Part shown: positions 9,490-29,344 of the stretch, one piece after another
Layout of the letters: each line of letters begins with the position of its first letter
How positions within the stretch are numbered: position 1 is the first letter of the stretch
Translations under genes and position numbers: made by a program
Notes under the pieces: generated by a model
What the model was told of the DNA's origin: nothing
Seen by the model: only the letters and a program-made list of their open reading frames with translations
Databases searched by the model: none
Source: Rufibacter roseus
GTDB taxonomy: Bacteria > Bacteroidota > Bacteroidia > Cytophagales > Hymenobacteraceae
DNA length: 64,000 bases
Assembly (NCBI RefSeq): GCF_001647285.1
Contig: NZ_LRML01000006.1
Span: forward strand, 62,001-126,000
Reading direction: 5' to 3'

Positions 9490-9503
9490 AGTAAAGTCGT
9501 ACG

Positions 9504-10796
9504 TTATTTTTTAGCCAAACGGATGCCGGTAAATTGCCAACGTTTGTCTGCATGAAAGAAATTACGGTATGTACAACGTATGTGGCTTTCTGGGGTGGCG
9601 CAGGAGCCGCCCCGTAATACCATCTGGTTCACCATAAACTTTCCGTTGTATTCACCTAAGGCTCCGGGGGCAGCAGAATAACCCGGATATGGCAGATAAG
9701 CACTGTTGGTCCATTCCCAAGTATTTCCCAGCAGGTGGGCTGTTTTAGGTGCGTTTTCAGAAAAAGAGGCCGAAATGGGCTGCAGCTTTCCTGATTCTAA
9801 AAAGTTGCCTTTGGCACTGGGGCTGGCGTGAAGCTGGGCTAAAACTTCCCACTCAAATTCGGTTAATAAACGGTGCCCGCTCCAGTTGGCATACGCTTGG
9901 GCTTCATAGAAGCTAATGTGGGTGACTGGCTCATTCTCCTTTACTTTTTCTACTCCGTGCAAGGTAAAATGGTACCAATCGCCTTCCTGCTGAAACCAGT
10001 ACAACGGTGCTTGCCATTGGTGCTGCTGAACTAATGCCCACCCTTCATCCATCCAATATCTGAAGTCACTATACCCGCCATCATCAATGAACGCCATATA
10101 TTCCCCATTCGTAACGGTACAAGAGCTGGCCTCAAAAGCCGGCAAAAGAACCTTGTGCGGGTTTAATTCATTGTCGAAGCAGAAACCTTCACCTTGGTAG
10201 CCAATGGTATAAATTCCCTCAGGTATGGTAAGCCATGTGTTTTGGGGCTGTTTTCCTGAAAACTCACCTAAAACAGAATTTTGCTGCTCGTGGTAAATAG
10301 GCATTAGCGGATTGCACCCTAAAATATATTTTATGTCAGTAACCAGCAGTTCCTGGTGTTGTTGTTCGTGTTGGAGCCCCAGTTCTATGGCGGCAGTTAT
10401 TTCCTCATTTTTAAGCAGCTCCTCATTCTGCAGAGCTTTTTCCATCCACTGGTCTACGTGCCGGCGATACTCCAGAATGTCTTGTAATGGTGGCCTGGAC
10501 AAAGTACCTCGGTCTGAACGGGCAACCCTGCTGCCCATGCTGTTATAGTATGAGTTAAAAAGAAAAGCATATTGGGAATGAAAGAGTCTATAGCCTTTCA
10601 CATGAGGAGCCAAAATGAAAGTCTCAAAAAACCAGGTGGTATGCCCCATGTGCCATTTAGGAGGACTTACATCTACCATAGGCTGCATCACCGTGTCTTC
10701 GGGAGTAAGCGGTGCGCAAATAGAAAGGGTCTGTTGACGTATGTTCTGGTACCGGGAGAGCAACAGCTCTAAGTAGCTGTGGTGAGTTGAGAGCAT
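9504..10796 (-). CDS. egtB: Ergothioneine biosynthesis protein EgtB (iron sulfoxide synthase)
   Basis: A DinB-like N-terminal helical bundle (PPKWHMGHTTWFFETF and LGLQHEQQHQELLVTDI, which supply the iron-binding histidines) is followed by a formylglycine-generating-enzyme-type C-terminal domain (GNTWEWTNSAYLPYPGY, VLRGGSCATP, RCTYRNFF, GIRLAK). EgtB is a non-haem iron enzyme that joins hercynine to a thiol and oxidises it to the sulfoxide. The frame is open to 10850; I favour the Met at 10796 (MLSTHHSYLELLLSRYQ) because the extra 18 residues look unrelated to the family and leave only 20 bp to the divergent menC gene. The cluster order egtB-egtD-PLP enzyme suggests one transcript. Confidence 0.93.
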   Translation of the reverse strand: MLSTHHSYLELLLSRYQNIRQQTLSICAPLTPEDTVMQPMVDVSPPKWHMGHTTWFFETFILAPHVKGYRLFHSQYAFLFNSYYNSMGSRVARSDRGTLSRPPLQDILEYRRHVDQWMEKALQNEELLKNEEITAAIELGLQHEQQHQELLVTDIKYILGCNPLMPIYHEQQNSVLGEFSGKQPQNTWLTIPEGIYTIGYQGEGFCFDNELNPHKVLLPAFEASSCTVTNGEYMAFIDDGGYSDFRYWMDEGWALVQQHQWQAPLYWFQQEGDWYHFTLHGVEKVKENEPVTHISFYEAQAYANWSGHRLLTEFEWEVLAQLHASPSAKGNFLESGKLQPISASFSENAPKTAHLLGNTWEWTNSAYLPYPGYSAAPGALGEYNGKFMVNQMVLRGGSCATPESHIRCTYRNFFHADKRWQFTGIRLAKK

Positions 10797-12859: not shown

Positions 12860-15274
12860 TTAAGATTTTTTCTTAGTGCCAGTACCTTTCTTTGCGGCTG
12901 TTTTCTTGGCCGGTGTCTTTTTTGCCGCCGCTGGCGTGTCTGCTGAGGCCGATTTTTTCTTGAAACCACCTCTGGCAGGTTTATCAGGAGTCTGCTCTGC
13001 CAGTTCCAGGCATCTTTCCAAAGTCAGCTCAGACGGCTCCTGACCTTTAGGAATCTTCACGTTCTTTTTACCTACTGCTATGTAAGGCCCGAATCTGCCG
13101 TTCAATACCGTTACCTCTGGGTTTTCAGGAAATGATTTTATAAGCTTTTCAGCGTCTGCTTTGCGTTTGGCTTCAATTATTTCAACGGCTTCCTGCTCTG
13201 TGACTAGCAGGGGATCTATCGTTTTGGGAAGTGAGTAAAATTTACTGTTATGTTGTATGTATGGCCCAAAACGCCCTATAGCGGCTTTCATGTCCTTGCC
13301 TTCATATTCACCCACCACTCTTGGTAACTTGAACAATTCCAAGGCTTGCTCTAAAGTGATAGACTCCAAAAACTGGCCTTTCCGTAGGCTCGCATAAACA
13401 GGCTTTTCTTCTGACTCCTCTACTTCTTCACCCAACTGTACATAGGGGCCAAAGCGTCCTAGTTTGGCTATTACTTTCTTACCGGTATTGGGGTCTGTAC
13501 CTAGTTCACGGGCACCGCTGACCGATGACCGCTCTACATCAGCGGAGGCTTCAATGGTTTTATGAAAGCTTGAGTAGAAGGTTTCTAACATGCTATCCCA
13601 CTGCTGCTTACCAGCTGCAATCTCATCAAATTCTTCTTCTACCTTGGCTGTGAAAGAATAATCAATCACGCTCTCGAAGTGTGCTACCAGAAAATCAGTA
13701 ACCACCATGGCAATATCAGTGGGGAAGAGCTTTGCTTTCTCCGCGCCAGCCATTTCGGTTTTCTTCTGCGTAGAGATTTCTCCTTTCTCCAACGTCAGCA
13801 CATGGTAGGGTCTTTCTTTTCCCTCTCTATTGTCTTTTTCTACGTAGCCTCTTTTTTGTATGGTAGAAATGGTAGGCGCATAGGTAGACGGTCTGCCTAT
13901 GCCCATTTCTTCTAATTTCTTCACCAGGCTTGCCTCGGTATAACGTGGGGCAGGGCGGCTGTAACGCTCGGTTGCCTGCAGGCGCTGCATGTTGAGCGAC
14001 TGGCCTTCCTGCAAAGGGGGCAACATCCCTTTCACATCATCATCGGCTATCTCTTCATCATCGGTAGATTCTGTATATACCTTCAGGAAGCCTTCGAATC
14101 GAACAACTTCCCCGGTAGCGACTAGTTTCTCCGGTTGCCCGCTTATGGAAATGGTGGCTGTGGTTTTCTCAATTTCGGCATCAGCCATCTGAGAGGCAAT
14201 AGCTCGCTTGCGAATCAGATCATAGAGACGCTGTTCGTTACGGTCATCGCTCACCGTTACAGCGGCAAAATCTGTTGGCCTGATAGATTCGTGCGCTTCC
14301 TGGGCTTGTTTAGACTTTGTTTTGTACTGCCTGTTTTTTACATAATCTTGACCAAACGTGCGCTGAATTTCAGCCGCGGCAGCCTGCATGGCATCTTGTG
14401 ACAAGTTCACAGAGTCAGTACGCATGTAAGAGATCTTACCAGCCTCGTAAAGCCGTTGCGCTACCGTCATGGTTTGGGCTACAGAGAAATACAGCTTGCG
14501 GCTGGCTTCCTGCTGCAGGGTAGAGGTAGTAAATGGCGGAGCTGGACTACGCTTAGTTGGCTTTTTCTCTAAGCTCTCTATTGAAAAAGAGGCGCCGATG
14601 CAACGTTTTAGAAAATTCTCGGCTTCCTCCTGCGTTTTGAAGCGGGTATTTAATTCCGCCTCCAATTTTTTACCGCCAGCATCAAAGTGCGCGGTAACTT
14701 TATAGGCAGATTCTGCCTTGTGCCGTTCAATTTCGCGCTCTCGCTCTACTACCAGCCTTACAGCAACAGACTGTACCCGTCCGGCAGAAAGACCCGTTTT
14801 AATTTTTTTCCAGAGCACCGGGCTTAACTCAAAACCTACCAAACGATCCAATACCCTTCGGGCTTGCTGCGCGTTCACCAGGTTCACATCTATAGTGCGC
14901 GGATGCTCAATGGCATTTAAAATGGCGTTTTTGGTAATTTCTCTGAATACAATACGCCTTGTTTTTGCTTCGTTTAAGTTTAAAGCCTCAGCCAAATGCC
15001 AGGAGATAGCCTCTCCCTCACGGTCCTCATCTGATGCTAACCAAACCGTTTCGGCTTCTTTGGCTAATTTTTTTAGTTGGCTTATGACTTCCCTTTTATC
15101 AGGGTTTATCACATAAGTAGGTTTGAAGCCATTTTGTATGTCAATTGCATTGTTGTCTTTAGGGAGGTCGCGCACGTGTCCAAAGCTTGACTTCACTACG
15201 AAATCTTTGCCTAAATAGTCTTCAATGGTCTTTGCTTTGGCCGGGGACTCTACTATCACTAAGTTTTTAATCAT
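12860..15274 (-). CDS. topA: DNA topoisomerase I
   Basis: An 804-residue type IA topoisomerase. The Toprim domain begins NLVIVESPAKAKTIEDYLG and has the metal-binding DEDREGEAISWHL. The active-site tyrosine lies in ISYMRTDSVNLS, and the domain ends with GIGRPSTYAPTI. The C-terminus carries several zinc-free repeats of the RFGPYVQLG type, then a Lys/Ala-rich tail (AAKKTPAKKTAAKKGTGTKK) that likely binds DNA. It relaxes negative supercoils. The frame opens 9 codons earlier at 15301, but the conserved N-terminus is MIKNLVIVESPAKAKT, so the start is placed at 15274. Confidence 0.97.
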   Translation of the reverse strand: MIKNLVIVESPAKAKTIEDYLGKDFVVKSSFGHVRDLPKDNNAIDIQNGFKPTYVINPDKREVISQLKKLAKEAETVWLASDEDREGEAISWHLAEALNLNEAKTRRIVFREITKNAILNAIEHPRTIDVNLVNAQQARRVLDRLVGFELSPVLWKKIKTGLSAGRVQSVAVRLVVEREREIERHKAESAYKVTAHFDAGGKKLEAELNTRFKTQEEAENFLKRCIGASFSIESLEKKPTKRSPAPPFTTSTLQQEASRKLYFSVAQTMTVAQRLYEAGKISYMRTDSVNLSQDAMQAAAAEIQRTFGQDYVKNRQYKTKSKQAQEAHESIRPTDFAAVTVSDDRNEQRLYDLIRKRAIASQMADAEIEKTTATISISGQPEKLVATGEVVRFEGFLKVYTESTDDEEIADDDVKGMLPPLQEGQSLNMQRLQATERYSRPAPRYTEASLVKKLEEMGIGRPSTYAPTISTIQKRGYVEKDNREGKERPYHVLTLEKGEISTQKKTEMAGAEKAKLFPTDIAMVVTDFLVAHFESVIDYSFTAKVEEEFDEIAAGKQQWDSMLETFYSSFHKTIEASADVERSSVSGARELGTDPNTGKKVIAKLGRFGPYVQLGEEVEESEEKPVYASLRKGQFLESITLEQALELFKLPRVVGEYEGKDMKAAIGRFGPYIQHNSKFYSLPKTIDPLLVTEQEAVEIIEAKRKADAEKLIKSFPENPEVTVLNGRFGPYIAVGKKNVKIPKGQEPSELTLERCLELAEQTPDKPARGGFKKKSASADTPAAAKKTPAKKTAAKKGTGTKKKS

Positions 15275-16111: not shown

Positions 16112-16861
16112 ATGGCAGCAACTATCGTATCGGTCATCAACCAAAAAGGGGGCACCGGCAAAACCACCACTACCATTAATTTGGGAAGTGCCCTTCAGCA
16201 TTTGGGTAAACGCGTACTGTTGATCGATCTTGACCCTCAAGCCAACTTATCTTACTCTCTTGGAATAACGGAACCAGCCTGCACTCTCGCTGATGTATTT
16301 ACCGGACAGCACTCACTGGCGGAATGCATACAAGAGCGCAACGGCCTTTTTGTGGCCCCAGGTTCAAATGAGTTGGTAGATATAGAGATTTCTCTGGTTA
16401 GCCAGGAAGAAAGAGAAAAGTTTCTGCAGCAGATGTTAAGCGGGGCAAAAGGCTACGACTATATATTAATAGATTGTCCTCCTTCCTTGTCATTGCTTAC
16501 GGTTAATGCCTTGGCTGCCTCACATGAAGTGCTGATTCCGCTTCAAATGGAAGTGCTGACATTACAGGGCTTAGGTCAAATTCTGAATACCGTTCAACAG
16601 ATCAAAGGTACGTTGAACAAAAAGTTGAAGGTGAAAGGAATAGTGGTGGTAATGTATGACAAACGCCGGAAGCTTAGCTCAGAGATAGAAGATTATTTGA
16701 AAGAGAATATAGACGAGTATATCTTTCAGCAGCGCATTAGGTTAAACGTGAAGCTCGCAGAGGCGCCTTCTTTTGGGAAAAGTGTCATTGAATATGACGC
16801 TTCCTCTTATGGCGCAAAAGACTACATTGGTCTGGCCAAAGAATTTATAACTGTAAAATAA
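16112..16861 (+). CDS. parA: ParA-family ATPase at the head of a chemosensory locus
   Basis: The 249-residue protein has the deviant Walker A motif NQKGGTGKTTTTINLG (Lys11 and Lys16), LLIDLDPQANLS (Walker A'), and IDCPPSLSLLTVNAL (Walker B), all typical of ParA/Soj ATPases. No parB or parS-like partner follows. Instead a large soluble chemoreceptor gene starts 132 bp downstream on the same strand. In several bacteria ParA-like proteins (PpfA, ParC) position chemoreceptor arrays or cytoplasmic clusters so that both daughter cells inherit them. I infer that role here. A chromosome-partition Soj is the alternative, but one would then expect parB next to it. Confidence 0.92.
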   Translation: MAATIVSVINQKGGTGKTTTTINLGSALQHLGKRVLLIDLDPQANLSYSLGITEPACTLADVFTGQHSLAECIQERNGLFVAPGSNELVDIEISLVSQEEREKFLQQMLSGAKGYDYILIDCPPSLSLLTVNALAASHEVLIPLQMEVLTLQGLGQILNTVQQIKGTLNKKLKVKGIVVVMYDKRRKLSSEIEDYLKENIDEYIFQQRIRLNVKLAEAPSFGKSVIEYDASSYGAKDYIGLAKEFITVK

Positions 16862-16993
16862 AGACAGTTTGCAGTTTCAAAACTTTAAAAATTGTTGCGA
16901 AACCTTTTAGCAAGTTGGCTTGGTTAATACTAGCATGTTTAGCATTTATTTGCTTTAACAATAAGAAAATAACGCTCTTCAATCATAGATAAG

Positions 16994-19900
16994 ATGGCTT
17001 TAGGTAAAAACTTAAAACTGAACAAGGACAAACTGATTGGGAAAACCGAGCCAGGAAATACTCCTGACCCTGCTCCAGAGGCTGCTAAACCAACCCCAGC
17101 AGCTCCAGAAATGCAGGCGAACGATGCTCCCGAGCAGCCAGTGAAGACAGAGGCGTCCACAGAGCCAACCCCAGGATCAAAAGTACGGCCTGGAGGAAAA
17201 GCCATGGAAAAAGGATCTGGCAGAGTTGTCAAGACATTGCTAAGCCCAGACAACGACAATGACAATGCCAGAAAAAGCAACACCCCCCGTGATTCTTCCA
17301 GAATGCAGAGCTCTGACTATATAAATGATCAGTTGAACCGGGTGCTGTATGCACTTGACGCATTCAAAAAAGGAGACGTTTCGGTTCGTTTAACCAAGCA
17401 GAACAACGACATCTTCTCAGAAATAGCCGAAGCCTACAACTCCATGGTGGAGATGATTGGTGGTGTGGGGGGCGAGGTGTCTCGTATCTCAAAAGTAGCT
17501 GGGGTTGAGGGTAACTTGAAAGCCCGTGCCTCTGCTGAGAACGCTTCCGGTTTCTGGAAAGACATGATCAACAATATCAATGGTCTGGTAGACTCCATAG
17601 CCGTTCCGGTATTGGAGGTGGGCAAGGTATTGAAGAATATCTCCAGAGGTAACCTGGACGAGACATTCCAGATTCCGGTGTCTGGTGACTTCAAGATCAT
17701 GGCCGAGACCATTAACCGCACCATTGACAACCTAAACTTGTTTGCCGGTGAGGTAACCCGTGTTGCCTTGGAAGTGGGTACTGAAGGTAAACTGGGCGGA
17801 CAGGCAAGTGTACCTAACGTAGCTGGTATCTGGAAAGAGCTGACAGATAATGTGAACGCGATGGCGTCTAACCTGACTTCTCAGGTACGTGACATTGCAA
17901 AAGTAACGACGGCGGTAGCCCAGGGTAATCTTGACCAGAAAGTAACCGCTGACCTGAAAGGGGAAATGCTCCAACTGAAGGAGAACATCAACCAAATGGT
18001 TGACTCTCTGAATATCTTCGGTGACGAGGTTACCAGAGTGGCCCGTGAAGTGGGTACTGAGGGTAAACTGGGCGGCCAAGCAAAAGTACCAAACGTTGGT
18101 GGTGTATGGAAAGACCTTACCGATAACGTGAACACCATGGCCAGCAACCTTACCTCTCAGCTCCGTGACATTGCCAATGTGGCAACGGCGGTGGCGAAAG
18201 GTGATCTGACCCAGAAAATCACAGTAAACGTGCGTGGAGAGCTGGCCGAGCTGAAAGACAACCTGAACCAGATGGTGGACTCGCTCAATATTTTTGCGGA
18301 CGAGGTAACCAGAGTGGGTCGTGAAGTGGGTACCGAGGGTATTCTTGGTGGTCAGGCCAACGTGCCAAAGGTAGCCGGTATCTGGAAAGAGTTGACAGAC
18401 AATGTAAACTCCATGGCTTCTAATCTAACCCTGCAAGTGCGTGACATTGCTAATGTTGCAACTGCGGTGGCGAGAGGAGATTTGAGCCAGAAGATTACAG
18501 TAAACGTGAACGGTGAGCTTCTCCAGCTGAAGGATTCCTTGAACCAGATGGTGGACTCCCTGAACATCTTCGCCGGTGAGGTAACCCGTGTGGCTCTTGA
18601 GGTAGGTACCGAAGGTAAACTGGGCGGACAGGCAACTGTGCCTAACGTAGGGGGTGTTTGGAAAGACCTTACTGACAACGTAAATAACATGGCGTCTAAC
18701 CTGACGCTGCAAGTACGTGACATCGCCAACGTGGCGACTGCTGTTGCCCGTGGTGACCTGAGCCAGAAGATCACGGTGAACGTAAACGGAGAGCTGGCGG
18801 AGCTGAAGGACAACCTGAACCAGATGGTGGACTCGCTCAATATCTTCGCCGGTGAGGTAACCAGAGTGGCCCGTGAAGTGGGTACCGAGGGTAAGCTAGG
18901 TGGTCAGGCCAACGTGCCTAATGTTGCCGGTGTATGGAAAGACCTCACTGACAACGTAAACAACATGGCTAGCAACCTGACGCTGCAAGTGCGTGACATC
19001 GCAAACGTAGCAACAGCGGTAGCCTTGGGTGACCTGAGCCAGAAGATTACTGTTAATGTGAAAGGCGAGCTGGCAGAGCTGAAGGACAACCTGAACCAGA
19101 TGGTGGATTCGCTCAACATCTTCGCCGGTGAGGTAACCCGTGTGGCCTTGGAAGTAGGTACCGAGGGTAAATTGGGCGGACAGGCAACCGTGCCTAATGT
19201 GGCCGGAACCTGGAAAGCTCTGACAGACAATGTAAACTCCATGGCGTCTAACCTGACGCTGCAAGTAAGAGATATAGCCAACGTGGCTACTGCGGTTGCC
19301 CGTGGTGACCTGAGCCAGAAGATCACGGTGAATGTGAACGGAGAGCTGGCCGAGCTGAAGGACAACCTGAACCAGATGGTGGACTCCCTGAACATTTTCG
19401 CAGGTGAGGTAACCAGAGTGGCCCGTGAAGTGGGTACCGAGGGTAAACTGGGCGGACAAGCCAACGTGCCGAATGTAGCCGGTACCTGGAAAGCATTGAC
19501 CGACAATGTAAACTCCATGGCCAGCAATTTGACCTCTCAGGTACGTGATATCGCTAATGTTGCGACCGCTGTAGCGAGAGGTGATTTGAGCCAGAAGATT
19601 ACAGTTGATGTTAAAGGTGAACTCCTCCAGTTAAAGGACAACCTGAACCAGATGGTGGACTCACTGAACATCTTCGCAGGTGAGGTAACCCGTGTGGCGC
19701 GTGAAGTGGGTACCGAGGGAATCTTAGGTGGTCAAGCCAATGTGCCAAACGTAGGTGGGGTTTGGAAAGACCTTACCGACAACGTAAACAATATGGCTGG
19801 TAATTTAACTAGCCAGGTTCGTGACATTGCCAACGTGGCTACTGCGGTAGCAAGAGGTGACCTAAGCCAAAAAATCACAGTAGATGTAAAAGGCGAATTA

Positions 19901-22408
19901 GCCGAGCTGAAGAATAACCTTAACCAAATGGTGGACTCACTGAATATCTTCGCTGACGAGGTAACTCGGGTAGCGAGAGAAGTGGGTACCGAAGGTAAAT
20001 TAGGTGGTCAGGCTAGTGTACCAAAAGTACGTGGTACCTGGAAAGAACTCACAGACAATGTGAACTCCATGGCGTCTAACCTGACCCTGCAAGTACGTGA
20101 CATTGCTAACGTAGCAACTGCGGTAGCGAAAGGTGACCTTACTCAGAAAATTACGGTTGATGTAAAAGGAGAGCTCTTAGAGCTGAAAAACATCCTGAAC
20201 CAGATGGTGGACTCTCTGAACATCTTCGCCGGAGAGGTAACCAGAGTTGCGCTAGAGGTGGGTACCGAGGGTAAATTGGGCGGACAGGCAACTGTGCCTA
20301 ATGTGGCTGGTACCTGGAAGACCCTTACGGACAATGTGAACTCTATGGCCTCTAACCTTACCAGCCAAGTGCGTGACATTGCTAACGTAGCAACCGCAGT
20401 GGCAAAAGGAGATTTGAGCCAGAAGATGACAGTAAATGTAAAGGGAGAAATCCTGCAACTGAAAGACATCCTGAACCAGATGGTGGACTCGCTGAACATC
20501 TTCGCCGGTGAGGTAACTCGTGTGGCGCTAGAGGTGGGTACAGAGGGTAAACTGGGCGGTCAGGCGACTGTGCCTAACGTAGGGGGTGTTTGGAAAGCAT
20601 TGACTGACAATGTAAACACCATGGCGTCTAACCTTACGCTGCAAGTACGGGATATAGCTAATGTGGCGACCGCCGTGGCGAAAGGTGACTTAAGCCAGAA
20701 AATCACTGTGAATGTGCGTGGTGAGCTGGCTGAGCTGAAAGACAACCTGAACCAGATGGTGGACTCGCTGAACATCTTCGCAGGTGAGGTAACCCGTGTG
20801 GCGCTAGAGGTGGGTACCGAAGGTAAATTAGGTGGTCAGGCATCTGTACCAAATGTAGCTGGTGTCTGGAAAGACCTTACTGATAATGTAAACGTAATGG
20901 CCTCAAACCTGACCACTCAGGTAAGGGGAATCGTGAAAGTAGTAACGGCGGTATCTAAAGGTGACTTAACCCAGAAACTGACCTTACAAGCAAAAGGCGA
21001 GCTAGCCGATCTGGCAGACACCATCAACAGCATGGTGGAAGACCTAAACCGCTTAGCTGGTGAAGTTAGCCGTGTGGCAAGAGTAGCGGGTGTGGAAGGA
21101 AAACTGACTGAGCGTGCTACAGTACATGGTGTAAGCGGAAGCTGGAAAGAACTGGTAGATACCCTTAATGACCTTCTAGAATCAATTGTAACGCCGGTAC
21201 TTGAGGTGTCTCGTGTTGTGCGCTCAATCTCTGAGGGTGATCTTACTCAAAAAGTAGAAATTCATACCGCCGGTGATATTCTGTCCATGTCAAATGCCTT
21301 GAACTTGGCGGTAGATAACCTGAACGCGCTTTTGGGAGAAATCAACGACAGTTCACTTATTGTAGGAAGCTCTTCTGAAGAAATGGCAGCCAAAGGGTTA
21401 GAGATGAACCGCGTTACGGTTGATGTGGCCTTAGCTATGCAACAGATGGCAGAGGGTGCGCAAAACCAAGCGTTGAAAACCGACCAAGCCTTTAAGCTTA
21501 TTGAGGAAATCATGAAAGCTACAAAGGAAACAGCCAATAAAGCAGACGTGGTGAACCGTTCGGCGGTAATGGGTGAGGAAACTTCCCAGCTGGGTCTAAA
21601 GACAGTGGCCGAGGTGGTGCGCAACATGGAAGAAATTTCATCTTCTGCGGCTCTTACCTCCAAAACCATTGAAGTACTAAGTACCCGCAGCCAGGAAATT
21701 TCTAAATCATTGGGTGTAATTACTGATATAGCCTCACAAACTAACTTGCTTGCGTTAAATGCGGCTATTGAGGCGGCCCGTGCCGGAGAGGCAGGGCGTG
21801 GTTTCGCGGTAGTTGCCGAGGAAATCAGAAAACTGGCGGAAGGATCTAGAAAATCAGCCAGTGAGATTGCTACGCTGGTAGAAGATGTGAAAAAAGATAC
21901 GTCGTCTGCCGCCGCTGCGATTGCCACCATGGAAGGACGGGTTTTAAAAGGAAAGAACGCAACATTCGAAGCCTCAGGAGCCTTCAAAAACATTGCTACT
22001 TCCAGCGGTGAAACACTTCGCAGTGCTCAGGACATCTTAGAGTCTACCGAAGTACAGAAAACTTCAATTGGAGACGTAGTGAAATATGTGGAAGAAGTGG
22101 TTGCCATTGCCGAGCAAACGGCTTCTGGTACGCAACAGGTAGCAAGTACAGCTAAACAGCTGTCAGCATCCATGCAAGAACTGACTACTTCGAGCCAACG
22201 CCTAAACGATATCGCCGACGACTTGCAAGTAGGTATTTCTGCCTTTAAGCTGATCAATGGGAACATTGTTTTCCCGAATAGCAACGCCCGGAAACTGTCA
22301 CCGATACGCAAGAAGCCAGTTTCTTTAGAATCGGCGGACGAAGTGTCAAATGAAGAGCAGGTTAAAAGAACTACACCAAAAAAAACTAAGAGCAAAGGCC
22401 AGGAATAA
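16994..22408 (+). CDS. Giant soluble poly-HAMP methyl-accepting chemotaxis protein (1804 aa)
   Basis: Residues 1-100 are Pro/Ala/charged-rich and likely disordered. From about 102 to 1480 there are 15 consecutive units of 92 residues, each with a canonical HAMP ([20 protein letters not shown] ... [11 protein letters not shown]) and a divergent HAMP-like partner ([19 protein letters not shown] ... [10 protein letters not shown]). Residues 286-1297 are 11 nearly identical units. The C-terminus (about 1480-1760) is a chemoreceptor signalling coiled coil with the hairpin tip [20 protein letters not shown] near 1587-1606, followed by a basic tail without a CheR-docking pentapeptide. No signal peptide or membrane helix is visible, so the receptor is cytoplasmic. 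The unit sequence strongly resembles HAMP repeats of fungal group III (Nik1) histidine kinases. It overlaps cheW by one base (TAATG), indicating translational coupling. Confidence 0.95.
17849..20884 (+). repeat. 11 tandem 276-bp coding repeats (HAMP units)
   Basis: Exact 276 bp periodicity inside the receptor gene: each unit starts at an AAT-GT(G/A)-AA(C/T) codon run (NVN) at 17849, 18125 and so on to 20884. Two more diverged units lie on each side. Many adjacent units share long near-identical DNA blocks, so copy number can change by recombination and short-read assembly may be unreliable here. Confidence 0.95.
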
Positions 22409-22905
22409 TGGAACCACAGAACGCACGAGAAAAAAGGGATGCGGCGGTTGAGGCTAGAGTGCACCTGATTGTGTTTAGGTTAGGCGAGGAGGAATACGGT
22501 GTACGCATAGATCAGGTAAAGGAAGTGACCATTACCCCTGAAATCACCCGTATGCCTAAAACTCCCTCCTTCATAAAAGGAGTATCTAACATCAGAGGTG
22601 ACATTATAGCCATCATGGATCTGGAAGAGCGCTTTAATATAACCAGCGCAGCCAGAGACAGCAGGCACACCTATACACTGGTGATGGAAGCCAAGGATTA
22701 TACAATGGGCTTTATAGTGAAAGAAGTACCGCAATCATTGTCTCTGCCCTTATCTAGCTTAGACAAAGCGCCTTCTTTTGTACAAGACTTCAACATCAGT
22801 GAGAATTTCATTGAGGGCATTGGTAAATATGAAAACCGGCTAATCATAGTGTTAGATATTTTCAAAATTTTGACCTCAGATGAGATCATGGAATTGAAAT
22901 CATAG
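22408..22905 (+). CDS. cheW: Chemotaxis adaptor CheW
   Basis: A 165-residue single-domain CheW: VHLIVFRLGEEEYGVRIDQVKEV at 13-35, then the conserved ITRMPKTPSFIKGVSNIRGDIIAIMDLEERF and GIGKYENRLIIVLDIFKIL. CheW couples receptors to the kinase CheA. The ATG overlaps the receptor stop (TAATG), which implies that receptor and adaptor are made together. A dedicated adaptor encoded next to this receptor suggests that they form their own array, separate from any membrane chemotaxis array in the cell. Confidence 0.96.
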   Translation: MEPQNAREKRDAAVEARVHLIVFRLGEEEYGVRIDQVKEVTITPEITRMPKTPSFIKGVSNIRGDIIAIMDLEERFNITSAARDSRHTYTLVMEAKDYTMGFIVKEVPQSLSLPLSSLDKAPSFVQDFNISENFIEGIGKYENRLIIVLDIFKILTSDEIMELKS

Positions 22906-22929
22906 TGCTAACATCTGAACTGAACTATT

Positions 22930-23310
22930 ATGGAAATCACAGAGAAAAAAAGAATATTGATTGTAGATGATTCCTTCTACATGCGCACTATGTTAAAGAA
23001 CATGCTGTTAGATGCAGGGTATGATGTGGTGGGCGAGGCGCCAGACGGAAAAACCGCCTTACAAATGGCGAAGGAAAAAATTCCGGATCTGGTGACGCTT
23101 GATGTTATTCTGCCAGACAACACCGGGCTTGATGTTCTGAAGGGAATCAAACAAGACAATCCAGACATTAAGGTGGTAATTGTAAGCGCAGTAGGCCAGG
23201 AGGTGATCATGAATGAAGCTTCAGAGTATGGTGCCCTGAACTACATCATCAAACCATTTTCTGAAGACAAAGTGCTGGAGGCACTAAATCAGGCCTTCAA
23301 AGAAGATTAA
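22930..23310 (+). CDS. cheY: CheY-like response regulator
   Basis: A 126-residue stand-alone receiver domain with the full phosphorylation set: ILIVDDSFYMRTML (acidic pair), VTLDVILPDNTGLDVL (phospho-acceptor Asp), VVIVSAVGQE (Thr/Ser position as Ser) and IIKPFSEDKV (Lys). It should receive phosphate from CheA encoded downstream. Its output partner is not encoded here: no flagellar or gliding motor genes are in the window. It lies 24 bp after cheW in the same operon. Confidence 0.95.
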   Translation: MEITEKKRILIVDDSFYMRTMLKNMLLDAGYDVVGEAPDGKTALQMAKEKIPDLVTLDVILPDNTGLDVLKGIKQDNPDIKVVIVSAVGQEVIMNEASEYGALNYIIKPFSEDKVLEALNQAFKED

Positions 23311-23337
23311 CAAGAAACCAAAGTACCTTTCTTACCA

Positions 23338-24468
23338 GTGCAGCAAGCGCAAAAAACAAAATTCAGGGTTTTAATAGGGGATACCTCTGTCCGCTCCAGA
23401 ATGGTTTTGTCCGGCATGATTGATGCCGAGCCAAATCTGGAGGTGGTAGATACTGCCCAAACAAAGGAGGAACTGCTGTATAAAGCATTCGCTTCCCGCC
23501 CAGATATTATTGTCACCCACACCGGTCTGACCTCAAGCGGCAATATGCCAGCTTTCAAACCAGTGTATTGGGCAGACGCTGCTTTGTTGCTAATGGTATC
23601 ACAGGAAATGTCTGCTCTGTCGAATCCACTGAACAGACATATGAAAGTGGTGAAGCCGGAGCAGGATAAAGTTGTGAAAGATAAGAATGCTGTTTTCAGA
23701 TTGGCTGCTTCAGGGCTGTTGCTAAAACTGAAAGAGCTAGTGCAGAAACATACTTCACTAAGCTACCAATTTCCGTTGAATAAGCCTACAGTTTCAGATT
23801 TCTTTACGCGGCCCCAATCATCTTTACCTTCACCTGATGTCGACAACCATTCATCATTATGTGTGGTGGCGGTGGGAGCTTCTACAGGAGGGTCAACCGC
23901 TATTGAATACCTTATTAGAGATTTGCAGGTAAGTAAACCAACCGTGGTGCTGGTGGCAGTGCATATGCCAGAGAAATTCACGAAGCTTTTAGCAAAACGT
24001 CTGCAAAAGGCAACCAATTGGCAGGTGGTAGAAGGTTATCAGGGTATGGAGTTGAAGGCAGGCACTGTGGTCATTGCCCCGGGCGGAACTAACACACGTG
24101 TTCAAAAGAGACCTTTTTACCCATACCAACTATTTCTAGAGCTAGAACTGGCCACCGCCCTTGACACTCCGTCTGTTGACATTCTATTTGAAAGTGTAGC
24201 AGATTGTGTTAAGCACAATGCATTGGGCATTATATTAACAGGTATGGGAAGTGATGGTACGGCCGGAGCTGTTGAAATAAGAAAAAACGGGGGAGTAGTC
24301 ATTGCCCAAGACAGAGAGACCTCATCTATATTCGGCATGGCTAAGTCTGCCATTGATAGTGGAGCTGTAAGCGGAGTTTTTGCTTTAGGGCAGATTAATT
24401 CAATCATCCAGAGGTTTGTTGAAGACCGTAACCAGAGCCAGTTGCTCCAAACCTACGTGGCCGGATGA
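23338..24468 (+). CDS. cheB: CheB-like methylesterase with a degenerate receiver domain
   Basis: The C-terminal half is a CheB methylesterase with its catalytic triad motifs: Ser in VAVGASTGGS, His in VAVHMPEKF and Asp in ILTGMGSDGTAG. It should remove methyl groups from receptor glutamates. The first 100 residues keep the receiver-domain outline (FRVLIGDTSVRSRMVLSGMI ... RPDIIVTHTGL) but the acidic pocket is largely lost: IGDT replaces the DD pair and THT stands where the phospho-accepting Asp should be. The enzyme therefore probably cannot be switched on by CheA in the usual way. Start is GTG at 23338; the stop overlaps cheA by 4 bp. No cheR gene is present in this cluster. Confidence 0.92.
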   Translation: MQQAQKTKFRVLIGDTSVRSRMVLSGMIDAEPNLEVVDTAQTKEELLYKAFASRPDIIVTHTGLTSSGNMPAFKPVYWADAALLLMVSQEMSALSNPLNRHMKVVKPEQDKVVKDKNAVFRLAASGLLLKLKELVQKHTSLSYQFPLNKPTVSDFFTRPQSSLPSPDVDNHSSLCVVAVGASTGGSTAIEYLIRDLQVSKPTVVLVAVHMPEKFTKLLAKRLQKATNWQVVEGYQGMELKAGTVVIAPGGTNTRVQKRPFYPYQLFLELELATALDTPSVDILFESVADCVKHNALGIILTGMGSDGTAGAVEIRKNGGVVIAQDRETSSIFGMAKSAIDSGAVSGVFALGQINSIIQRFVEDRNQSQLLQTYVAG

Positions 24469-26096
24469 AGTCGAGAGAGCAGGAATACAAAGAAATATTC
24501 GTAGCCGAGGCGCTTGAGTATTATGATGCTCTCAGCAGGCACATCAGTGAGCTGGAGAAGACCCCGGAAGATGAGCAGATCTTGGCTGAAATCTTTCGTC
24601 TGTTGCATAACCTGAAGGCGAATGCAAAAGCAATAGGTTATCTGGTGATTGCGGATGTTTCTCACAAGCTGGAGACGGCTTTTGGCATGATCCGCAACAA
24701 AGAGCTTAGCTTCTCAGATGAAGTGGTTACCGTTCTCTTTGACGGTATTGACATGCTGGGCGAATTGATTTCAAATGTGGATGGTGCCAAAGAGATAGAG
24801 CCTAGTCCTGCTTTGCTCCGGAACCTCGACATCATCATCAATACACAAACAGATAATAATACAGAACTCAACAAAGTTCAGAAATACTATACCTCAAAAA
24901 ATCTTTCGCTTTCCGATCTGATTTATATCCAGATTAAAAAGCTGGATCATTTGTTAAACTTGGTTGGGGAGTTGATCATTGATAGAGACCGCATAGTATC
25001 TATAAGTAAGGAACTGGACAATGACGACCTGAAAAACGTTAGTGCCCACTTATACCGTATAACGGAAGAACTGCAATACAGCGTCATGGATGCCCGCTTG
25101 GTGAACGTGGGTTCTCTGTTCAATAAATTCCCCCGCATTGTCAGAGATATAGCCGTTGCCGAGAAAAAAGAAATTAATCTTGAAATATCTGGTCAAGACA
25201 TTCAGATTGACCGGAATATTCTTCAGATTATCACTGACTCTTTGCTTCACTTAATGCGGAATGCTATTTCTCACGGAATTGAGAAAGCTGACGTTAGAAA
25301 GAAGAATAAGAAAACACCACAAGGAAACATTGAGCTGTCAGCCCAGAACGACCGTGATACTGTAATTCTAAGGCTGAAAGATGACGGCAAGGGAATAGAT
25401 CAGCAGGAGGTACGTAAAGCCATTGTGCAGAAAGGCTTTCTAAACGCCGATGCTGTAAGCGATCTCCGAGACACAGAGGTTCTGTCGTTCTTGTTTGAAC
25501 CAGGATTTTCGTTGGCCAAGGAAGTAACAGAGGTATCTGGTCGCGGAGTGGGCTTAGACGTGGTAAAGAATGCCATTGACTCAATTGGCGGTAGAATTAA
25601 AGTAGATTCTAAGAAAGGTGTAGGCACTACGTTTACTCTTTATCTGCCTACTTCTATTGCTGTAAAAGGAGCTTTGCTGTGCCAGGTAGAAGAAAATTTC
25701 TATGCTATTCCGCTCATGCACACAGATTCTGTGTTGTCTTTGCCTACAGAAAAACTGCATGAAGTGGGTAACCTGCTGGTAACAGACATCAAAGGAGAAA
25801 CCATTACCGTTGTGCACATGCGGGAGCTCTTCAATAATGATTTAGATACCTACAATGGTACTAAAACAGCGTTGGAGGGAGACGTGCAGAACATCATTAT
25901 AGTAACTTACAACAACCGTAAACTGGGTTTGATAGTTGACAAGCTGCTTCGGCAGCAAGACATAGTGATCAAGTCGCTCAGCAGACCGGTGAACACCATT
26001 GATATTTACGCGGGGGTAACGCTTTTAGGGTCAGGCAAGGTTTGTCTGGTACTGGATGTGGCAGCCATTACTCGCTACTTTATTGCCAGAAGATAA
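24465..26096 (+). CDS. cheA: Chemotaxis histidine kinase CheA
   Basis: The 543-residue protein has an N-terminal Hpt domain with the phospho-accepting His48 in IFRLLHNLKANA. A short linker without an obvious P2 domain follows, then a dimerisation segment (DHLLNLVGELIIDRDRI), a GHKL ATPase (LMRNAISHGIE, LKDDGKGID, SGRGVGLDVVKN, KGVGTTFTLYLP) and a C-terminal CheW-like regulatory domain from about residue 400. It autophosphorylates on ATP and passes phosphate to CheY. The lack of a P2 domain makes it shorter than enterobacterial CheA. ATG overlaps the cheB stop (ATGA). Confidence 0.96.
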   Translation: MKSREQEYKEIFVAEALEYYDALSRHISELEKTPEDEQILAEIFRLLHNLKANAKAIGYLVIADVSHKLETAFGMIRNKELSFSDEVVTVLFDGIDMLGELISNVDGAKEIEPSPALLRNLDIIINTQTDNNTELNKVQKYYTSKNLSLSDLIYIQIKKLDHLLNLVGELIIDRDRIVSISKELDNDDLKNVSAHLYRITEELQYSVMDARLVNVGSLFNKFPRIVRDIAVAEKKEINLEISGQDIQIDRNILQIITDSLLHLMRNAISHGIEKADVRKKNKKTPQGNIELSAQNDRDTVILRLKDDGKGIDQQEVRKAIVQKGFLNADAVSDLRDTEVLSFLFEPGFSLAKEVTEVSGRGVGLDVVKNAIDSIGGRIKVDSKKGVGTTFTLYLPTSIAVKGALLCQVEENFYAIPLMHTDSVLSLPTEKLHEVGNLLVTDIKGETITVVHMRELFNNDLDTYNGTKTALEGDVQNIIIVTYNNRKLGLIVDKLLRQQDIVIKSLSRPVNTIDIYAGVTLLGSGKVCLVLDVAAITRYFIARR

Positions 26097-26134
26097 GAGA
26101 AGTTGGGAAAAAAGAACTTTTAAAAGCCTGATTC

Positions 26135-26758
26135 ATGGAGCTTCAAGTAAATGAACTAGAGCGGGATATCATCAAGGAGATCCTCAACATTGGCCTGGCG
26201 CGCGCTGCAGATTCTTTTGCAGTGATAGCCAAAGACCGTGTTATGCTGAAAGTGCCTGACTTGCAATTAATGGAGCCCGAAAAGCTTTTGGACATTGTGC
26301 GGGCGTATGAAAATTCGCACACTATCATTCAGTCCGACATAAAAGGCGAATTGAATGGCTCTACGTTGATGCTGTTTTCTCCAATGCATGTGCAGCAGTT
26401 ATCAAATGTGTGCTTGGGTATGAAGGTTGAGTTAGGCGATTCGCTTAACATGATGCAGGAGTCTTTGTTGCTGGAAGTAAGCAATATCATAACCGGGGCA
26501 TTGGTGACGCAGCTGGCAAATATTCTAAAATCAAACATATACGGCTCACCTCCGGTAGCGCCTAAGCACGATATTGCCGAATCTTTGAAGAGTATATTCA
26601 CAGAACACCCTCTTTTTAAACCGTTGGTGTTTACTGTTATCACTCAGTTTACCAATAATTCTAAAATGGTGGAGTTGCCTTTGCTTCTTTTCTTTGACAC
26701 CAACACCTTTATCAAAATTCTGGACATTATCAGGTCTTACAATTTCCTGACCCAGTAG
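26135..26758 (+). CDS. cheC: CheC-family CheY-P phosphatase
   Basis: A 207-residue CheC/CheX/FliY-type protein with two copies of the phosphatase signature (Asp or Ser, x3, Glu, x2, Asn, x22, Pro). The first is Asp11-Glu15-Asn18-Pro41 and the second Ser110-Glu114-Asn117-Pro140. Both are intact, so it should hydrolyse phospho-CheY and close the phosphorylation cycle. It is the last gene of the locus, followed by a strong terminator. Having CheC but no CheZ or CheR is consistent with a simplified, possibly non-methylation-based adaptation scheme (inference). Confidence 0.88.
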   Translation: MELQVNELERDIIKEILNIGLARAADSFAVIAKDRVMLKVPDLQLMEPEKLLDIVRAYENSHTIIQSDIKGELNGSTLMLFSPMHVQQLSNVCLGMKVELGDSLNMMQESLLLEVSNIITGALVTQLANILKSNIYGSPPVAPKHDIAESLKSIFTEHPLFKPLVFTVITQFTNNSKMVELPLLLFFDTNTFIKILDIIRSYNFLTQ

Positions 26759-26965: not shown

Positions 26966-28249
26966 ATGAACGCCTTAGGAAGACACATACTGGTTGAATT
27001 TTACAATTGCACACCAGAGCTGATGAATGACGTGGTACACATTGAGAATAGCATGGTGAGTGCCGCTGAAACGGCTGGTGCTACAGTGATCAACAGTACC
27101 TTTCATCATTTTTCTCCTTATGGCGTTTCTGGGGTGGTGGTAATTCAGGAGAGTCACTTGGCTATTCATACCTGGCCTGAATACGGATATGCGGCGGTAG
27201 ACTTATTTACCTGTGGTGAATCAGTAGATCCTTGGGTGTCATACAACTACCTGAAAGAAGCCTTTAAAGCTAGCCACGGTTCCTCTATGGAGTGCCGCAG
27301 AGGCCAGCAGAGTCTTCTGAAGCGTACAGATTTTACCGTAGAGGCTCGTGATACTGGACAGTCAATAGAAACCTTGCCTACCTTCACCCGCGATGTTTGG
27401 TTTACCGAGCGTGACGAAAACATTGCCCTCTCGCTGAAGCACACCGGAAAGCAACTATACAAGAAGCAATCGGATTATCAACGGGTAGAAGTATTTGAAA
27501 CGCTGGCGTACGGCAATATGCTTACGCTAGATGGCATGGTCATGTGTACGCAGAAAGATGAATACGTGTATCACGAGATGATCACTCACGTACCCGTGCT
27601 CAGTCATGGTAACGTGAGGCGAGCGCTGGTTATTGGGGGCGGAGACGGAGGCACTGTTCGGGAGCTGTTGCGTCATGAATCTATTGAAGAAGTGGTATTG
27701 GTAGAGATAGACGCCTTAGTTATTGAAGCCTGTAAGCTTCACTTGCCAGAAACGGCCAGTGCCTTTGATCACCCAAGGCTAAAGCTGTTAGTGGAAGATG
27801 GTATAAAATATATTCAACAATGCGCTGATGAGGCCTTTGATTTGATAATTGTTGATTCAGCTGATCCGGTAGGACCAGGGGAAGGATTGTTTACAGCTGA
27901 ATTTTATTCTCAGGTGTACCGCTGCCTGACAGGCAATGGCATCATGATCACCCAAAGTGAATCTCCCAGATTTAACACCAAGGTGTTTGTAGAAATTTAC
28001 GACACCTATAGAGGAATCTTCGGAGCGAACAATGTACATTGCTATCTGGCCGCAATTCCTACCTACCCAACCGGCACCTGGAGCTTCTCCTTTAGCTCCA
28101 AAGGGCAGGCACACCCAAAGCAGTTTGATGCCGAGGCTGCTGCCCGTTTCTCCCGCGAACAAGGTCTTCGTTATTATAATGAGGAAATTCATATTGCGGC
28201 CTTTGCCTTACCTAATTATGTTAAAGATTTACTGGCTGTTAAAGCGTAA
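26966..28249 (+). CDS. speDE: Fused S-adenosylmethionine decarboxylase / spermidine synthase (SpeD-SpeE)
   Basis: Residues 1-115 are a bacterial class 1B AdoMet decarboxylase: [11 protein letters not shown], the self-cleavage site at Glu62-Ser63 in [15 protein letters not shown], and DLFTCG with catalytic Cys83. Residues about 130-427 are a complete spermidine synthase ([55 protein letters not shown]). One polypeptide thus makes decarboxylated AdoMet through a pyruvoyl cofactor and uses it to aminopropylate putrescine. The frame is continuous with no internal stop, and both active sites look intact. Fusions of these two enzymes are known from diverse bacteria. A ureohydrolase follows 3 bp downstream, which would supply putrescine. 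Confidence 0.95.
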
Positions 28250-28252
28250 AGC

Positions 28253-29344
28253 ATGAACCTTAACCTTAAGTCAATGTGCGATTCAAAGCGCACGAAAATT
28301 GCCTCTTTTGACCAAAACGGAGTGGGCGAAGTAGGAAGTAATTTGTTTGGGCTTCCATTCACCGAAGAAGAATCAGAGGTAGTAGTTTTTCCTATTCCAT
28401 GGGAAGTAACTGTGTCATATAATGCAGGTACTGCCGAAGGTCCGGCAGCTGTGTTAGATGCGTCTCCCCAATTAGATGTGTTTGATCCGGAGCTTCCGGA
28501 TGTATGGCACTTGGGCATACACATGCCTGAAATTCCTGAGAATTGGGCCTCAGAAAGTAGACGGCTGCGCGAAAAGAGTGAGCACTACATCAAATGGTTA
28601 GAGTCTGGAGAGAATACAGGAATAGAACGGTTTAAGCTGACCATTGACGAAATAAACCGCAAAGGCGAGCAATTGCTGGATTGGTCAAAGACTGAAACAG
28701 GAGCTTTGCTGGACAAAGGGAAACTAGTAGGAGTGTTGGGTGGAGACCACAGTACCCCTCTGGGTTTCATGCACGCCCTAGCCGATAGAAACAGTGAATT
28801 TGGCATACTGCAGATAGACGCACATTCAGATTTGCGCAAGGCGTATGAAGGTTTTCCCTATTCGCATGCCTCTATCATGTACAATGCTTTAAAACTGCCA
28901 CAGGTAAAAAAGCTAGTGCAGGTAGGCATCAGAGATCTATGCCAGGCCGAGGCGGAATTAGTGGATCAAAGCAACGGCAGAGTTACCACCTTCTACGACA
29001 GCAAAATAAAGGCTGCCATGTATGAAGGTACTTCATGGCGCAAGCAGTGTAAAAAGATCATAGCGCAATTACCACAAAAAGTATACATCAGCTTTGACAT
29101 AGACGGATTAGATCCGAAACTATGTCCTGCTACTGGTACTCCGGTGCCAGGTGGTTTTGAATTTGAGGAAGCGGTATACCTGATCAAGGCCTTGGTGAAA
29201 TCAGGTAGGGAAATTATTGGTTTTGACCTTTGTGAAGTAGCTCCTGGTGAAAGTGACTGGAACGGGAACGTAGGTGCCCGTCTTCTGTTCAAACTCTGTA
29301 ACTGGATGGCCGTATCCCAAGGTAGACTTAAATCAGTAGATTAA
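28253..29344 (+). CDS. speB: Agmatinase-family ureohydrolase
   Basis: A 363-residue arginase/agmatinase-fold enzyme with all manganese motifs: GVLGGDHSTP, LQIDAHSDLR and SFDIDGLDP. The typical PGGFEFEEA stretch precedes a C-terminal GFDLCEVAPGESDWNGN. The coupling to speDE (3 bp spacing) makes agmatinase, which releases putrescine and urea from agmatine, the best reading; guanidinobutyrase or arginase activity cannot be excluded from motifs. It is longer than E. coli SpeB because of an N-terminal extension of about 40 residues and an insertion near 105-145. No arginine decarboxylase (speA) is in the window. An alternative start is the Met at codon 8. Confidence 0.88.
   Translation: MNLNLKSMCDSKRTKIASFDQNGVGEVGSNLFGLPFTEEESEVVVFPIPWEVTVSYNAGTAEGPAAVLDASPQLDVFDPELPDVWHLGIHMPEIPENWASESRRLREKSEHYIKWLESGENTGIERFKLTIDEINRKGEQLLDWSKTETGALLDKGKLVGVLGGDHSTPLGFMHALADRNSEFGILQIDAHSDLRKAYEGFPYSHASIMYNALKLPQVKKLVQVGIRDLCQAEAELVDQSNGRVTTFYDSKIKAAMYEGTSWRKQCKKIIAQLPQKVYISFDIDGLDPKLCPATGTPVPGGFEFEEAVYLIKALVKSGREIIGFDLCEVAPGESDWNGNVGARLLFKLCNWMAVSQGRLKSVD

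Follow-up and report, generated by a model that had tools for sequence, protein, structure and literature searches.

The closest described parallel to the system treated here is found in Rhodobacter sphaeroides. Its soluble receptor TlpT is encoded in a che operon (CheOp3) with an orphan ParA, PpfA, beside the receptor (PMC3964821), and the TlpT N-terminus is thought to act on PpfA in the way that ParB acts on ParA (PMC3964821). That ParA genes accompany che operons was known before: ppfA homologues were reported in the che operons of 77 of 206 species (PMC2829493). We analyzed a 64,000-nucleotide stretch of Rufibacter roseus (contig NZ_LRML01000006.1, positions 62,001 to 126,000 of the forward strand; hereafter the window), which harbors a chemosensory operon at positions 16112-26758. 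The operon encodes a ParA-type ATPase, a soluble receptor composed largely of HAMP domains, CheW, CheY, CheB, CheA, and CheC. The receptor starts with a 15-residue tag that is co-inherited with ParA. Neither this tag, nor the degree to which it is conserved, nor its occurrence on CheW appears to have been described before.

At 567 residues, TlpT is too short for such a HAMP array, and it works alongside a second, membrane-bound array; R. roseus has no receptor other than the soluble one. In Vibrio (ParC-ParP) and Halothiobacillus (ParC-CheW), a partner protein likewise links a ParA-like ATPase to the array (PMC5706961, PMC10241942). These systems differ in that the arrays are polar and the bacteria flagellated, and the cited passages make no mention of a MALG-type tag. 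FrzCD of the gliding bacterium Myxococcus xanthus is a soluble receptor with concatenated HAMPs that forms clusters on the nucleoid (PMC12077210, PMC5716589), and these HAMPs modulate how it binds DNA and assembles into clusters (PMC12077210). However, FrzCD has two HAMPs, binds DNA through a basic tail, and has its own methyltransferase and methylesterase (FrzF and FrzG); no ParA partner is mentioned in the cited parts of these reports.

Two reports bear on how a short peptide can engage ParA. Chromosomal ParA is bound by the N-terminal peptide of ParB through L11, L15, L18, I19, and a central Arg/Lys at position 13, and the peptide pocket lies at the edge of the ParA dimer (PMC12462528). Charged N-terminal peptides of partner proteins have been described as a general ParA/MinD tag (PMC10241942). 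As far as the accessible text of the searched literature goes, no description of the tag, its conservation, or its place on CheW was found. Searches on chemotaxis or gliding in Hymenobacter gave no report, and those on chemotaxis or HAMP in Pontibacter gave just a spinach phyllosphere study, within the same limits.

Co-inheritance of the receptor tag and ParA

The features at the 5' end of the operon are as follows.

16112 to 16861, plus strand: ParA-type ATPase of 249 residues with the deviant Walker A motif KGGTGKTT, in the chemosensory ParA clade and not with chromosomal Soj (open reading frame (ORF), Pfam, and trees).
16994-22408, plus strand: receptor ORF of 1804 residues (ORF and Pfam).
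16994 to 17038, plus strand: receptor N-terminal tag, residues 1-15, the proposed ParA-recruiting peptide (family alignment and co-occurrence with chemosensory ParA).

CheA relatives in named genomes were found in Rufibacter, Sabulibacter, Pontibacter, Adhaeribacter, and Botryobacter (51 loci, Hymenobacteraceae; hereafter the family). Splendidivirga and three weak matches were the further relatives. The initial annotation had described the ParA as dedicated to this operon, and the comparison bears this out. ParA lies directly upstream in 49 of the 51 family loci, and the remaining two (L027 and L033) are cut by a contig end and start inside the receptor. In agreement, the operon ParAs form a group in both ParA trees (support of 98/94 and 100/97), with the Soj group apart (100/99 and 100/100). 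The trees and a genome search distinguish the orphan che-operon ParA from the chromosomal ParA, and the chromosomal Soj-ParB pair of the host is located elsewhere (L067).

The first 15 receptor residues fit MALGKN[LM]K[LM][SN]K[DE]KLI in 50/50 family receptors with an N-terminus, the window included. The sequence is variable from residue 16 onward, save for residue 19 (E in 46/50). Conservation is also lacking in the bases 5' of the tag methionine, which were read in frame for 15 loci. Within the family, the hydrophobic tag positions L3, L/M7, L14, and I15 are conserved as well as the lysines.

Outside the family, 59 stretches were obtained from 54 of the 64 genomes with a methyl-accepting chemotaxis protein (MCP) match. 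In these stretches, 19 receptors start with MALG-x-N, typically MALG-x-N-[ILV]-K-K-[DE]-[KR]-L-[IL], and two further receptors carry the variant MASGKEIKRDRLIP (MASG variant). All 21 are soluble by hydropathy, and PAS plus a single HAMP_2 stretch was found in each of the 12 that were scanned. L108 and L111 are two-receptor operons with one tagged member, in which a tandem second MCP gene, untagged, lies behind the tagged one. When 3,862 ORFs from 114 loci were scanned for the tag pattern, 72 matched: 70 MCPs, two CheWs, and no other protein. The pattern was derived from the same 114 loci; therefore, the scan tests specificity, not discovery. The tag as a component of HAMP-array function was ruled out, because the tagged non-family receptors carry PAS (12/12) and tagless poly-HAMP receptors exist.

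The tag is co-inherited with ParA. When only an adjacent ParA was counted and the MASG variant was scored as no tag, the 64 non-family MCP ORFs comprised 15 with both tag and ParA, 43 with neither, four with the tag alone, and two with ParA alone. L107, L112, and L127 are only apparent cases of a tag without ParA, since a whole-genome search located ParA elsewhere in the genome (47-49% identity). The two genomes with the MASG variant also have ParA elsewhere (45-46% identity). The non-adjacent ParA of all five tagged genomes falls in the operon-ParA group (100/97), apart from Soj (100/100). L143 is only an apparent case of ParA without a tag. Its receptors are transmembrane, ParA is present, and both CheWs (9408-9962 and 13362-14033) bear the tag, with MALGxN at the N-terminus; one tagged CheW lies directly after ParA. 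CheW is also the modelled ParC partner in Halothiobacillus, according to the cited part of that report (PMC10241942). L119, the sister of L143 in the CheA tree (100/100), has an equal layout of transmembrane receptors and two CheWs; it has no tag, and its best ParA is Soj. Among the 23 searched genomes with visible tagless receptors (G424 and G324 among them), none has its best ParA in the chemosensory group. G341 and G389 have no receptor N-terminus and hence stand outside this count.

Poly-HAMP receptors of other families are encoded in L124 (7461-12395, minus strand; 1644 residues, 13 HAMP units) and, as two ORFs, in L148 (7686-11816, minus strand). Neither locus carries the tag or an operon ParA, and in each genome the best ParA match is Soj. 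The parA-receptor pairing expected among relatives in the initial annotation is conserved in the family and does not extend to these poly-HAMP receptors outside it. Because their signalling domains lie inside the family group (100/100; inner fork 99/59) and their CheA adjoins it, operon transfer followed by an apparent loss of ParA and tag is suggested. Since these receptors have neither an operon ParA nor the tag, signalling by a HAMP array seems not to involve ParA.

In independent pairs, the tag accompanied ParA in 5/5 supported pairs on the receptor tree and 5/5 on the CheA tree (p = 0.0625). Fisher tests of tag and ParA gave p = 2.8e-9 for adjacent ParA only and 9.6e-13 with the three trans cases added. 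The Fisher values ignore kinship and predate the L143, G242, and G269 results; hence, the claim of co-inheritance is based on the independent pairs together with the tests of individual cases. The family share of each tree was 12 loci plus the window. The receptor tree omits L126, L132, L140, and L153 (N-terminus missing or the second locus of a genome), as well as L119, L130, L142, L143, L154, and the N-terminal fragment of L148 (no tip motif); L055 was unscored. The CheA tree omits loci without a long CheA plus L126, L140, and L153. Neither tree includes L155-L164, ten loci of the classical transmembrane kind.

A candidate link between the tag and ParA

From these comparisons, it is probable that the operon encodes a stand-alone, nucleoid-positioned cytoplasmic array whose receptor tag recruits the neighbouring ParA. 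A role of ParA is strongly supported at the level of inheritance, and the tag is the likely physical link, for which it provides a concrete candidate. We infer both the physical binding and the nucleoid positioning. The tag would bind the neighbouring ParA dimer and stimulate its ATPase, as the ParB N-terminal peptide does on chromosomal ParA. ParA-ATP would cover the nucleoid, and cycles of binding and release would pull or space the array, so that each daughter receives one. A flexible linker would join the tag to a rod of about 29 HAMP domains, with a length of about 70 nm as estimated from HAMP dimensions; for cytoplasmic arrays described so far, the spacing is 31-35 nm (PMC3964821). The rod would relay, and may itself set, the conformation passed by the MCP hairpin via CheW to CheA.

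The tag resembles the ParB N-terminal peptide in its N-terminal position, its disordered context, its aliphatic and basic residues, and the LG-x-x-L ... L-I pattern, which it shares with the host ParB. It differs in a spacing that is two to four residues longer, in the lack of a ParB domain, and in its separate ParA group. ParB/Srx CTPase and helix-turn-helix domains are absent from the receptor by Pfam, and the ParB likeness is confined to the peptide. The tag may be read as a related binding mode with its own specificity, not as ParB ancestry.

Several observations weigh against recruitment of ParA by the tag. When ParA was tethered to the tag in AlphaFold2 (as a monomer), ParA was mostly confident, the tag had a predicted local distance difference test (pLDDT) score below 40, and no docking was seen. 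The tag is only partly ParB-like. LG-x-x-L and L-I are common to the tag and the host ParB (LGRGLNALI), but relative to ParB, the L-I pair lies four residues further along in family tags and two further along in the others. In addition, 17/19 non-family tags have D or N in place of the central basic residue. In L128 (G438), the tag is degenerate (MALGKNSQKETLAEG) and the best ParA is Soj. The absence tests placed just the best ParA match of each genome, with G389 unplaceable. A sign test on five pairs cannot go under 0.05, and both trees use largely the same loci.

It is very unlikely that the tag is instead a direct DNA- or membrane-binding peptide whose link to ParA is mere shared operon history: the tag is rich in lysine and basic like the FrzCD tail, which binds the nucleoid (PMC5716589), but it also has the conserved hydrophobic residues noted above, it disappears with ParA while the receptor stays (L124 and L148), it is borne by the CheW beside ParA in L143, and the five non-degenerate tagged genomes without an adjacent ParA have ParA in trans.

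The HAMP array and its input

The remaining parts of the receptor are as follows.

17039 to 17350, plus strand: receptor linker, residues 16-119, hypervariable and of low complexity (alignment).
17351 to 21184, plus strand: poly-HAMP array, residues 120-1397, corresponding to 13.89 of the 92-residue units and to some 28 HAMP domains (Pfam and repeat analysis).
21185 to 21343, plus strand: last HAMP preceding the signalling hairpin, residues 1398-1450, approximate limits (Pfam and alignment).
21344 to 22258, plus strand: MCP signalling hairpin with the tip at Glu 1593, approximate limits (Pfam and alignment).

Pfam detected HAMP_2 in 14 stretches of the receptor, HAMP in 13 stretches, and one MCPsignal (1524-1704). 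The MCP hairpin matched PF00015 with an E value of 1.1e-38, and its conserved tip is at E1593. The Pfam scan revealed no ligand-binding domain, only HAMP and the MCP hairpin; HisKA, HATPase, and receiver domains were also absent, and the C-terminus is the MCP hairpin. The receptor has no membrane helix, because the top 19-residue hydropathy is only 1.35. The cytoplasmic model of the initial annotation, which a membrane segment or a ligand-binding domain would contradict, is consistent with both analyses.

The regular HAMP units have 12 starts and 11 spacings, each of exactly 92 residues. When the divergent end units are counted, the receptor has about 14 double units and a final single HAMP, giving a total of about 29 domains. 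This is close to the 'about 15 double-HAMP units' originally proposed. The window array spans 1278 residues from the first to the last HAMP (13.89 units). Of the 55 family receptor ORFs tried, 34 matched both anchors and 21 did not. The array span equals n x 92 + 82 residues, with n = 7 to 14, in 34/34 anchorable family receptors; HAMP unit number changes among them while the 92-residue phase stays. In L028 (4445-8784) and L056 (1983-7785), the family receptor is split in two ORFs, possibly by a frameshift or a repeat assembly error.

The 11 core units of the window have a mean identity of 86% in protein and 77% in DNA. They are under purifying selection, with a median ratio of nonsynonymous to synonymous substitutions (dN/dS) of 0.07 (48/55 unit pairs) and a mean dS of 1.59, near saturation. 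The constant span and this selection show that the repeat is no accident. Matched position by position, the window units share 94-96% identity with the units of four Rufibacter loci and 90% with those of Sabulibacter, versus 86% within the window; unit positions are not preserved between genera. Recent repeat expansion or gene conversion was ruled out as the source of the near-identical units, because dS is near saturation and same-position identity in Rufibacter exceeds identity within the window. The units are thus old and constrained. In the consensus of 373 units, few stretches are as conserved as the connector GTEGKLGGQ, one of two.

The closest solved structures to the HAMP unit are 9trk (E value of 5e-77) and 9trj (2e-36), which are histidine-kinase HAMP arrays fused to GCN4. 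The kinship to kinase HAMP repeats proposed in the initial annotation therefore holds in sequence for these two arrays, the ones compared. The match to the Aer2 structure (3vol) is weak (2.5e-5). Aer2 shares HAMP repeats with this receptor and has three HAMPs in its N-terminal array. An AlphaFold2 model of two HAMP units (pLDDT of 50.9) gave just a helix-connector-helix pattern and was not used as evidence of the fold. The group III (Nik1) kinases have double-HAMP repeats of about 90 residues, similar to the 92-residue unit here. They differ in that their output is a built-in kinase, whereas the output of the R. roseus receptor is CheA via the MCP hairpin. CaNik1 has nine HAMPs (PMC3848655), compared with about 29 in R. 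roseus.

The sensor, relay, and spacer roles of the HAMP array have similar weight. It is possible, on a tentative view, that the array serves chiefly as a structural rod or spacer that separates the ParA anchor from the CheA/CheW baseplate, and that the real input comes from a partner protein or from ParA/nucleoid tension. The exact 92-residue phase maintained despite varying unit number, and the likeness of same-position units within Rufibacter but not across genera, would fit a rod. However, HAMP is a signalling fold, and the conservation of connector GTEGKLGGQ exceeds the needs of a spacer.

By analogy with the proposal for fungal Nik1, the array itself could sense the osmotic, mechanical, or crowding state of the cytoplasm. 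The poly-HAMP receptor is the sole receptor in the genome and has no other sensor domain and no membrane helix, its unit is close to histidine-kinase HAMP arrays, and purifying selection on the units is strong. We nevertheless regard sensing by the array as unlikely, for unit number varies from n = 7 to 14 across species of one family, which is odd for a tuned sensor, and the signal could come from a partner protein. Nik1 HAMP function is itself unsettled: in the cited part of the report, the function of the fungal HAMP repeats 'is not yet clear', and deletion of all HAMP domains renders the kinase pathway constitutively active (PMC3848655). Because of both points, sensing cannot be taken as proven from the Nik1 analogy. 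The comparison with the fungal kinases is weaker than first claimed, and FrzCD is the better functional comparison.

Signalling chain, output, and distribution

Downstream of the receptor, the operon encodes the following proteins.

22408 to 22905, plus strand: CheW (ORF and Pfam).
22930 to 23310, plus strand: CheY, a single receiver with all five active-site residues (ORF, Pfam, and alignment).
23338 to 24468, plus strand: CheB with a GTG start, an intact esterase triad, and a degenerate receiver (ORF, Pfam, and alignment).
24465 to 26096, plus strand: CheA with Hpt, dimerisation, ATPase, and CheW-like domains and little room for P2 (ORF, Pfam, and alignment).
26135 to 26758, plus strand: CheC, the phosphatase of phosphorylated CheY (CheY-P), with both E-N active-site pairs (ORF, Pfam, and alignment).

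The ORF list and the Pfam scan place ParA, receptor, CheW, CheY, CheB, CheA, and CheC in this order on the plus strand, as the initial annotation had it. Its mention of several overlapping start and stop codons was a little strong, since two overlaps were counted (receptor/CheW by 1 base and CheB/CheA by 4 bases). The self-contained, soluble character of the system was upheld by gene content, Pfam, and hydropathy. A profile search of the host genome (5.1 Mb, 99.99% complete) found one MCP, one CheA, and one CheW, all in the operon; apart from the CheW gene, the CheW domain occurs solely within CheA.

The window CheA shares 86-88% identity with its counterparts in the loci from Rufibacter and Sabulibacter. 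The order ParA, receptor, CheW, CheY, (CheB), CheA, and CheC recurs in the 51 family loci as far as the stretches reach. Receptor, CheW, CheY, and CheA are present in all 51, CheC in 50 (the L056 stretch ends in CheA), ParA in 49, and CheB in 43; the eight loci without CheB have no room for it. An MCP match occurs in 204/204 family genomes, in a search that detects the MCP domain alone and not the whole operon, and 202 of them have exactly one. G064 and G108 are the sole family genomes with two. Of the 390 genomes sampled from the order, 143 matched the MCP domain, 79 inside the family and 64 outside. In the phylum sample, only four genomes of the same class beyond the order match (E values of 4e-6 to 1e-3). 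A related operon with receptor, CheW, CheY, often CheB, CheA, and CheC is widespread in the order outside the family. Its receptors are mostly soluble: 50 of 54 ORFs (49 loci) have no membrane-length stretch, and the other four belong to L143 and L119. In L131 (5986-15765), the ParA-receptor block is flanked by two CheA genes.

In the aligned proteins, the CheY active-site residues D, D, D, K, and S/T are present in 95/95, and the phosphorylated His of CheA is present in 100/104, the exceptions being three gaps and one E. The second site of CheC is present in 86/86, and the window CheC has both sites. CheA would phosphorylate CheY, and CheC would dephosphorylate CheY-P.

CheB retains its esterase triad in 78/78 aligned sequences. 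In the receiver of the window CheB, T16 replaces the second acidic residue and H61 replaces the phospho-Asp. The second acidic residue is D in 0/44 family CheBs versus 34/34 outside, and the phospho-Asp is present in 17/44 versus 34/34, where the outside counts are totals minus family counts. The receiver is broken in the family alone, and CheB is gone in 8/51 family loci. No stand-alone CheR was found in the host; the only CheR matches lie within large ORFs, one of 1039 and one of 1364 residues. The broken CheB receiver and the absence of a stand-alone CheR point to a methylation branch that is decaying or altered. The receptor has two motifs, at 1710 and 1724, that we take to be methylation-like from their consensus.

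CheY-P most likely acts on the gliding/type IX secretion system (T9SS) motor, with GldL as the target that we infer. GldK, GldL, and GldM are clustered in the host, and all pass the curated cut-offs. T2SSE-family (PilT/PilB) ATPases were absent from the host (0 matches), in a search that was positive in 14/14 control genomes, 13 over the cut-off; type IV pili were ruled out as the output by this result. To our knowledge, relatives of the host have no flagella. These three points, the presence of GldK-L-M, the lack of a PilT/PilB-family ATPase, and relatives without flagella, lead to GldL as the target. Such an argument from missing alternatives counts against the assignment, and the flagellar genes of the host lay outside the search.

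The control of gene expression, adhesion, or the cell cycle by CheY, rather than the steering of movement, is possible but doubtful. The analysis identified no CheY target, and in the majority of family loci the operon is followed by polyamine genes (speDE in 47/51 and an arginase-family gene in 49/51). On the other side, CheC and an intact CheY suit a fast reversible output, and the host has gliding-motor components; a CheY-like protein binds PorL, a homologue of these components, in Porphyromonas (PMC5005315). In the window, the fused S-adenosylmethionine decarboxylase-spermidine synthase (speDE) and the arginase-family gene lie behind the operon at 26966-29344.

ParA positioning of protein machines is general, but how the cargo is tied to ParA is seldom easy to read from sequence. 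Here, the link would be visible as a short tag, which stays with ParA while sensor domains change, moves to CheW where receptors are in the membrane, and is missing where a chemosensory-group ParA is missing. It could be tested by moving 15 residues. A single soluble chemoreceptor without a ligand domain is a clean system for the question of whether HAMP arrays sense by themselves. In a bolder and rather improbable scenario, the family would steer with one receptor whose sole input is a rod of about 17-31 HAMPs, tagged by way of ParA to the nucleoid. The array would then respond to physical conditions in the cytoplasm, or to traction by the chromosome itself, and not to a ligand, while methylation-based adaptation decays. 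The operon may offer a route into how gliding Bacteroidota are steered.

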